In this document: piece after piece, positions 3,500 to 6,328 of the stretch
Layout: each line of letters begins with the position of its first letter
Numbering within the stretch: position 1 is the stretch's first letter
IMG/VR virus record: IMGVR_UViG_3300045125_000087
Span: 1 to 36,624 of that record
DNA length: 36,624 bases
Source of the DNA: a virus
Reading direction: 5' to 3' (one strand)
Made by a program: the position numbers and the translations under genes
Notes under the pieces: model-generated
What the model saw: the letters and a program-made list of their open reading frames with translations, nothing else
Databases searched by the model: none
What the model was told of the DNA's origin: nothing

Positions 3500-4797
3500 T
3501 TGACTACGACCATGCCAGCCTCCCACACCGTCGAGCAGACTCCAGAGGGCAAGGTTCGCATTCGCGGCCTTGAACTCTTCATGGCTTACGACCCGCCATC
3601 GACTCCGGCGAGGACGAGGCCATGCAGCAGTACGACAATGACCGCGTGCGGAACATCGTTTCCCGCACCGGCAAGTTCATCTGCGCGCGGCAGCCGTCCG
3701 AAACTCGTCATCGAGCACGAGAAGGACGGCAAGCCCACCCGGCCCGAGGCCGTGGGCGATGTCGTGAGCGTGCAGTACCAGGAGCGGAACGGCGTCGGCT
3801 ATGTGGTCGGCGATGTCGAGATGCCGAAGGAGGCGTTCGATTTGCTGCTGGCGTCCAACGCCTACCCGCGACGCTCGGCGGAAATCTGGAAGGACAATCA
3901 TCTGTCGGAGGTGGCGTTGCTCGGTCGAGACACACCGCGCCGTCCGCTGCCCGACACCCGATTCACCAAGCTGCGGCGAGAAGGCCGTCTTTGAGAGGCC
4001 GATGGGCACCGTGCGCATAACTCTTGACTCGCCAGACCAATTTGCGGAGATTGGCGTCGGCGGTGGACTCAACACTTTCATCCCCTCCGCAGGAACAGGA
4101 AAGAAGCAAATGCCGAGCAAGATGAAGAAGAAGATGGAAGCCGAGATCGAGGACGAGAAGTCCAAGGTCGCCGCTGCCGCTATGGAGTGCGAGGCCGAGG
4201 ACGAGGCCAAGGATGAGCAGGAGGCCGACGCCGAGGCGATGGCCGCAGGCGGCATGGAGCTCGCCGGCCCCATCGACGGCGATGAGGATGAGGAGAACTT
4301 CGGCGACGGCGTGCATGTGGACATTGGCTCGCATCACGGGCGAGGAAGAGGAAGAGGACGAGGAAGAGATGGAGGCCGCCTACGGCGGAAAGGCAAAGAT
4401 GAGCAAGACCGTGAAGGCCGAGAAGGCCCTGTTCGCCCGCGTGCAGGCTGTGAGAGCTGCCAACAAGACGCTGGAGCGTCAGCTGCGCCTGGAGCGGTTC
4501 GGCCGCGAGGTCGATTCGATGCTCTCGGGCGGCTACCGCTGCGGCAAGTTCCGCAACCAGATGGTCGAGGAACTGGCTGACAGCAGCCGTCCCGAGGCCA
4601 AGATCGCCTTCTGGAAGGCCACGATGGCCAGGACCCGATCAACGTTCCGCTCCGTCGCGCGCTCACGCTGTGACCGACGAGGGTGGCGCGGAGATGGATG
4701 TGAAGGCGGCGACGGCTCGGGCCGTGGCCGAGGCTAGGGCGACCTCGCCAAGTTCAAGAGCTCGTTCGCCAAGTACAGCGGCCAGAAGGCCGTCTGA
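3500..4797 (+). CDS. head maturation protease fused to scaffold
   Basis: TTG start at 3500, six bases after AAGGAG (3489-3494). Residues 1-165 form a protease-like domain: KLVIEHEKDGKPTRPEAVGD gives a candidate catalytic His, and YPRRSAEIW followed by HLSEVALLGRDTPRRPLPDT gives a candidate catalytic Ser, as in prohead serine proteases. After one correction near 3970 the frame continues into a very acidic and then basic scaffold-like region (4110-4600), ending TDEGGAEMDVKAATARAVAE ... SSFAKYSGQKAV at 4797. A second start, ATG 4110 (MPSKMKKKMEAEIEDEKSK), could make a nested scaffold, a common phage arrangement. Residues at 4053-4085 repeat the capsid N-terminal peptide. Further breaks lie near 3600, 3690, 4340, 4640 and 4735. 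Confidence 0.72.
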
Positions 4798-4814
4798 AAG
4801 AAGCGGACTGACAC

Positions 4815-5287
4815 ATGGGATCGTTCTCTGATACTCCGGCACTGATCGCGGGCGGCGATGTTTACCCGTACCGCTTCATCCGCGTCGATACCACCGGCCC
4901 GACTGCCGTGACTGATGACAACACCGGCGTGCAGGTCGACGCTGCTTCTGACAATGTGATTGGCGTTGCCGATGGCAGCACCAACGGCCCCTGAGCCGGC
5001 AAGCACGCTGCAGACGGCGATCCGATCACCCTTGCAGGGTGGCGATGTCGTTCTCGTGGAGTGCGGCGGCGCTGTCTCTCGTGGCGGTCGGGTGCAGGCC
5101 GACTCGGACGGCAAGGCGGTTTCGGCCGTCGTTACCTGCTGGCCCCGCGTTCCGATATCAGGGCTATGTGGCCCTGGAGGCCGGCGCATCTGGTCAGATC
5201 ATCCGCGTGTGCAAGAATGGCGGGATGGTCTACTACCCGACCACCGCTCTGATTCAACAGCCAACCCCCAAACACAAGGAGCAATGA
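4815..5287 (+). CDS. capsid decoration/cement protein, DUF2190-like
   Basis: Starts MGSFSDTPALIAGGDVYPYR and continues as a Gly/Val-rich beta protein: NVIGVADGSTN, HAADGDPIT, GGDVVLVECGGAVSRGGRVQ, GYVALEAGASGQIIRV, ending at 5287. Small beta-rich proteins with repeated 'GDxV ... AGxxVxxxxxG' patterns directly before the major capsid gene are typical of DUF2190-type capsid cement proteins. Breaks occur near 4992, 5030 and 5145. The assignment rests on pattern and position. Confidence 0.65.
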
Positions 5288-5290
5288 GCA

Positions 5291-6328
5291 ATGGCTGAGT
5301 ACGGAATTGGCGGTGGGCTGAATACCTTCATCCCCACGCTCTCGGCTGCCACTGGGCAGATCCAGATTGAGTTCACGCGAGCCGTCAATCGGTTCCCGAT
5401 CACGCAGTACGCGCAGATCGTGCCCGTGCAGCAGATGAGCCGGCTACTACCTCGCATCGACGAGGAGGAGACTGCCCGCGTGGTCAACACGCAGGATCTC
5501 CAGTGGCTTCTCGGCGAGGATCGTCCTACCGGCATCAACAGCGATATCGACTGGACGCAGTTCACCTGCCAGCGGTTCCAGACCTCGTTCGCCATCCCGC
5601 AGGAGACTGCTCGGCGAGTCCAGTGGGATGTCGTGGCGAGTCATGCCCGCATCGCTGCGGCCAAGATGATGACCGCTCGCTCGTACCGCATGGCGACGCA
5701 GTTGACCACCTCGGGCAACTACACCAGCGGCAGCAACTACTTTGCCACGGCCAGCCGCTCTCGTGTCGGGTGTGAACTTCACCAGCACCGATGGCGTTCA
5801 GCAGATCATCCGCGCGTCGATTGAGAAGATCATTCAGAACACGGTCGGAGCGGTGTCGCCAAGGACATCATCCTCGTGGTGAATCCCATCACTGCCCGAT
5901 TGATGGCGGGTTCTGCCGGCGTGGTTGACTATGTGAAGAACTACCCTGCGGCGTTCTCGTACCCGAAGGGAGATGACACCTTTGCCGCTTACGGTCTGCC
6001 TCAGACGCTGTTCGGTCTGGGCGGCGTGGTGGTCGATGACACGGTTCGTGTGACCACCCGAAAGGGCAACAGCAGCCCGGCGCGTGGCTTCTTCTACGGT
6101 GACGCGACTTCGCTCCCGGCATGGTGTTCGTGAGCCGTCCGGGCGGTCTGGTCGGCAATGAAGGCCCGTCCTTCAGCAGCCGCGACCATCTTCGCCTACG
6201 AGGACATGACGGTGGAGACTCTGGAAGATCCGTGGAACCGCCGAATCCGTGGCAGTGTGACCGACAACAGCGCGACCGTTCTCACGGCTCCGCTGGCTTC
6301 GCTCTACATCGCAGACGGCAACTCGTAA
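5291..6328 (+). CDS. major capsid protein
   Basis: Starts MAEYGIGGGLNTFIP three bases after the decoration gene. About 345 residues, matching HK97-fold capsids, with the expected helical and beta pattern: ARVVNTQDLQWLLGEDRPTG, FQTSFAIPQETARRVQWDV, SHARIAAAKMMTARSYRMAT, then VVNPITARLMAGSAGVVDYV, LPQTLFGLGGVVVDDTVRVT, YEDMTVETLEDPWNRRIRGS and LYIADGNS. Breaks lie near 5440 (compensated), 5757, 5850, 6115 and 6180. Location after protease-scaffold and decoration protein, followed by a terminator, supports the call. The region around residues 45-50 probably reads SGYYLR in the true sequence. Confidence 0.88.

Follow-up and report, generated by a model that had tools for sequence, protein, structure and literature searches.

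The window analysed here, a virus record from IMG/VR that is 36,624 bases long, carries on its plus strand a run of head genes in which a protease-scaffold gene (3512..4797; protease domain, motif and scaffold, starting at ATG 3512 or TTG 3500) is followed by a probable decoration or cement gene (4815..5287) and by the major capsid protein (MCP) gene (5291..6328). These frames are broken by many small indels, with 40 gap openings in a 2.2-kb alignment to the closest relative, L004, and the genes were delimited by alignment to intact relatives (protease-scaffold), by the match to relative L135 (decoration/cement) and by a match at 1e-142 to the L022 MCP. Over the whole record the indel pattern resembles that of an uncorrected long-read assembly, and relatives have intact head genes. 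Because the window genes are broken, all protein work was done on these intact relatives; a PHROGs search with the window fragments gave no match, and matches were obtained only with the relatives. The relatives' MCPs match PHROG 1005 (major head protein) and have the HK97 fold (3bjq, Z 14.1, with more than 200 chains at Z of at least 8 and both capsid and encapsulin shells among the matches listed), the MCP model being of low confidence over the N-arm, residues 1–48. The L135 segment corresponding to the gene in between (3557–3961) matches PHROG 673 (1.4e-8) and, weakly, Phage_cement_2 (0.041). Around the protease and MCP genes lie Mu-like head neighbours, identified by Phage_Mu_F (8e-11, L089) and Phage_Mu_Gp36 (2e-6, L135); apart from these two families and the weak cement-protein hint, Pfam matches were below the cut-off and chance-like, and were discarded.

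Two near-identical 11-residue peptides, both untouched by the indels, are encoded in this block. Copy 1, GVGGGLNTFIP (4053..4085, plus strand), lies between the protease domain and the scaffold, and copy 2, GIGGGLNTFIP (5303..5335, plus strand), forms residues 5–15 of the MCP, in its N-arm. Retranslation of the window reproduced exactly the positions and translations given in the initial annotation, as well as the codon differences it had reported; seven of 33 bases differ, five being silent third-position changes and two falling in the V/I codon. In a six-frame search of the whole window both copies scored 59–60 with BLOSUM62, with the runner-up at 24, and a degenerate DNA pattern for the motif matched exactly twice, with no match in the reversed control. 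The same pattern had exactly two matches in each of 13 long records from the two lineages that we call clades 1 (that of the window) and 2, again with none in the reversed control, and a Ser version of it likewise gave exactly two per record in five records from clade 3, so that all 18 long records of the three clades have exactly two copies. No third copy was found in the six frames of the window or in these 18 records. A further S/T-A-x-T-G extension, initially described as common to both copies, lacks conservation in the relatives' protease genes.

Finding both copies in independent genomes had been proposed as a check, and every IMG/VR relative that we found does carry both. An MCP search of IMG/VR yielded 36 loci, all 36 with the two copies, and scans with MCP and protease-scaffold protein alignments reached further lineages, for a total of 89 pairs after duplicate removal. 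A search for exceptions revealed none, the motif being present in 91/91 distinct protease-scaffold proteins and 80/80 distinct MCPs. The last scan was not motif-seeded, all of its patterns lying in the protease domain away from the motif; here too, the motif was present in all 80 protease-scaffold proteins and all 76 MCPs. Identity among these motif-bearing relatives goes down to about 34–35% for the protease-scaffold protein and 46–49% for the MCP. In tblastn searches at useful E-values, neither protein matched cultured phages (INPHARED) and the MCP had no match in PLSDB plasmids. The sole match to a bacterial genome was L140 (OMJK01000020.1), a 6.5-kb contig in a Nitrospiraceae metagenome bin, which could be phage sequence placed in the wrong bin or point to the host. 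Judged from these sequence comparisons, the two-gene motif is real and has been deeply conserved across an uncultured group of phages. Separately, L022 shares protease-scaffold genes that are 97–98% identical with those of L025, L027 and L030 and MCPs that are 68–70% identical, a pattern of mosaic exchange between these genes, both of which retain the motif.

That the 11 residues recur within 1.3 kb of one indel-rich record could in principle reflect a functionless recent duplication, a gene conversion or an assembly artefact. However, at the residues identical between the two copies, codons differ in 414 of 638 cases compared to 381 expected if codons were drawn independently according to each genome's codon usage. 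Such a degree of difference shows that the copies are not recent DNA copies of one another and that the match is held at the protein level, as initially claimed. Together with the presence of the motif in every relative across several deep lineages, this rules out such an origin, to which we give next to no credence.

Nearly every copy conforms to the consensus G-x-x-[NS]-x-[FY]-[IV]-P, usually with GGG in front, on which each lineage has its own variations. Clade 1 has G[VI]GGGxNTF[IV]P, at times APGGGxN[TA]F[IV]P in the MCP, and in clade 2 (L087–L095, L200) both genes encode a version shorter by one residue, [AS]PGG[SG]NTFVP, with Gly changed to Pro at position −9 of both genes in L087–L095. 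In L088, a stretch of fourteen residues, EVSPGGSNTFVPTF, is identical between the two genes. Clade 3 has VGGGxSx[FY][IV]P in the protease gene and mostly [VA]GGGLSTY[IV]P in the MCP, with Ser in both genes, as opposed to its relatives L281 and L310–L389, with Asn in both. In clade 4 (L134, L147–L174), drift has turned the protease copy into PG[VA]GNVF[IV]P, and the MCP copy is still GGGL[NS]TF[IV]P. Because the genomes share ancestry, we take the joint changes to represent a handful of events, rather than a formal test of co-variation. Within clades, single-position co-variation was mostly not significant, and a significant case, position −6 of clade 1 with 29 matches in 38 pairs compared to 22.6 expected, is confounded by that ancestry. 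As a separate observation, the MCPs of L006, L008, L014 and L015 begin MPN[VT]SSYAVAPGGGNNAFIP, with a few extra residues before the motif and two core residues changed; the protease copies of these four remain GVGGGLNTF[IV]P.

Copy 1 lies about 180 residues into the protease-scaffold protein (L022 numbering). For residues 4–140 of the model, the best solved match was T4 gp21 (5jbl; Z 6.9, below 8, over 114 residues at 3.5 Å), followed by the herpesvirus assemblins of VZV, PRV, HCMV and HSV (Z 3.4–4.5). Since Z is below 8 and Foldseek with the same model gave no significant match (E 1.5), the gp21/assemblin-like appearance of the predicted domain is suggestive and not proof; a profile search of the sequences of solved structures gave no match. 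His69 and Ser122 (L022 numbering), invariant in 28 diverse proteins, are candidate catalytic residues. Beyond this domain, the junction with the scaffold is variable and predicted to be disordered (pLDDT below 50 at 119–201 of the L022 model), with the motif outside the protease fold. The motif is the sole strongly conserved stretch of this junction, with G184, N187, F189 and P191 invariant in the same 28 proteins. The scaffold part that follows has helices at 299–362 and 388–414 of the model.

A conserved Met stands directly after the motif in nearly every lineage. In 86 of 89 non-redundant pairs, the corresponding ATG, 7–12 codons after the motif, is preceded at 5–10 bases by a Shine–Dalgarno-like AAGGA, AGGA, GAGG or similar, in the window by the AGGA at 4097–4100 upstream of ATG 4110–4112 (4097..4112, plus strand). 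These bases are encoded through varied amino acids (KGK, KRK, GKK, KKE, TKD), and their preservation across such differences points to selection on the DNA. The acidic scaffold part with its helical C-terminal half (4110..4797, plus strand) is thus probably also made alone from this internal start, as judged by the conserved start and the L022 model. Because the start is downstream of the motif, the peptide would be part of the protease-containing product and not of the free scaffold. The peptide does lie in the linker of the protease-scaffold gene, as initially placed, but in the part that comes only with the protease, and the scaffold as such would not carry it. Moreover, with the internal ATG so near the motif, a cut at the motif and initiation at the internal start would define nearly the same scaffold.

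Of the roles initially suggested for the peptide (protease site, self-assembly tag, or mimic by which scaffold and capsid arm bind one partner), we favour the first, and a mimic borne by free scaffold would no longer apply. Our reading, to which we give about an even chance, is that the phage's maturation protease recognizes the peptide and would cut both proteins there; most likely, this would be a new and unusually long version of a known shared maturation-cleavage site. A cut in the disordered junction would free the protease and leave a scaffold almost identical to the product of the internal ATG. The MCP copy, at the tip of the N-arm and inside the procapsid, would be the second substrate, and its cleavage would trim roughly 12–15 residues, with the arm then free to rearrange at maturation. 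One guess for the scissile bond would be after the invariant aromatic residue. In line with this reading are the conservation of the motif within an otherwise variable, disordered junction outside the protease fold, the near equivalence of the two scaffold ends, and the joint lineage-level changes in both genes (Asn/Ser, the one-residue deletion and Pro at −9). Capsid proteases commonly cleave themselves from a scaffold or propeptide. There are also precedents: in SPN3US, a single motif marks where the protease cleaves both the MCP and its own C-terminal propeptide (PMC7411985), the 80alpha capsid and scaffold proteins lose 13 and 14 residues at one common N-terminal sequence (PMC5744158), and T4 gp24 loses 10 residues (PMC9958956).

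Several points weigh against cleavage. Eight to 11 conserved residues are long for a phage protease site, and there are only two copies per genome, though such proteases often cut several head proteins. The protease copy of clade 4 has drifted away from the MCP copy, the gp21 fold match remains below Z 8, and in Mu, the phage best known for this gene arrangement, there is no shared peptide and, according to the annotation, amino acid sequencing has confirmed the start of T. The main alternative, possible though unlikely, is that the protease peptide copies the capsid N-arm for docking, binding its groove on a neighbouring subunit inside the shell and keeping the protease at the wall up to maturation, at which point the arms of the capsid would take its place. 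This rests on an N-arm role like that in the Mu-like phage JBD30, where the N-arm hooks over the neighbouring capsomer and residues 2–14 refold at the portal (PMC11445458), and it predicts the same sequence pattern as cleavage. The location of the MCP copy at the N-arm, the confinement of the motif to the protease-containing form and the exact number of two copies per genome are all as expected for docking, and the joint changes would fit one common groove. Nevertheless, we prefer cleavage because the protease, brought in by its attached scaffold half, needs no second anchor, and because the resemblance mostly ends at the proline; TFSxATGxIQxEFTR, a stretch conserved in the capsid protein, is not copied. 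That the arm copy serves as a placeholder in the arm-binding groove, coupling protease release to shell locking, is put forward with slightly greater reserve.

It is improbable, though a precedent exists, that both peptides bind a third protein, such as a chaperone, the portal or the scaffold itself. This was suggested earlier for the 80alpha N-terminal sequence, which in the scaffold is required for assembly although its cleavage is not, and for which a common chaperone was proposed (PMC5744158). Here, no candidate partner is visible and the free scaffold would be without the peptide; with its start after the motif, partner sharing would apply only to the protease-containing form.

Set against known systems, cleavage at the shared peptide would most resemble the SPN3US/phiKZ-type and T4 gp21 proteases, with one motif in both the protease itself and the MCP, and it is gp21 that provides the best solved match for the protease domain (Z 6.9). 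The motif of SPN3US and T4 is, however, short (AXE or [IL]xE), as opposed to the 8–11 residues with Gly, Asn, aromatic and Pro, and no xxE, found here; unlike those systems, only two copies occur per genome, and the part removed from the MCP would be about 12–15 residues compared to 65–130. As in 80alpha, one peptide is common to capsid and assembly protein and marks a short N-terminal capsid stretch, but 80alpha relies on a host protease (Prp site) and has both copies N-terminal, whereas the present phages encode their own protease, which carries its copy internally. A protease gene with an in-frame internal scaffold start is likewise found in Mu I/Z, where Z starts inside I as a nested gene, in lambda C/Nu3 and in herpesvirus UL26/UL26.5, and in herpesviruses the release site is also upstream of the internal start. 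The likeness to Mu extends to the F-like and gp36-like neighbours. Nonetheless, Mu I has no detectable sequence homology with the protease-scaffold protein (hhalign probability 0.6%, on a chance stretch only), Mu T has no detectable sequence relation to the MCP, and Mu and JBD30 were rejected as carriers of a shared peptide, having none common to protease and MCP. Short peptides common to shell-associated proteins are also known from the T4 capsid targeting sequence and from encapsulin cargo-loading peptides. The T4 sequence, however, is N-terminal on internal proteins and absent from the MCP, in contrast to the internal copy 1 and the MCP copy 2 described here, and encapsulin cargo peptides bind the shell without copying its N-arm. 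In the literature on peptides shared between protease and capsid, we found no closer case.

One peptide kept alike in two places provides a sequence handle on capsid maturation in a large group of uncultured phages. If it is a cleavage site, protease specificity and the mature MCP N-terminus could be read from metagenomes, and substrates of the protease could be recognized by the motif; a docking mimic, on the other hand, would amount to a new way of timing protease release and shell locking.

A second motif, GVH[VI]DIxSHxGE followed by an acidic run, occurs amid variable sequence in the scaffold region of clade 1 and clade 3 proteins. It is absent from a few members (L010, L023 and L027) and is found in the window as GVHVDIGSH (4308–4334) and also in L239, L253, L262 and L274.
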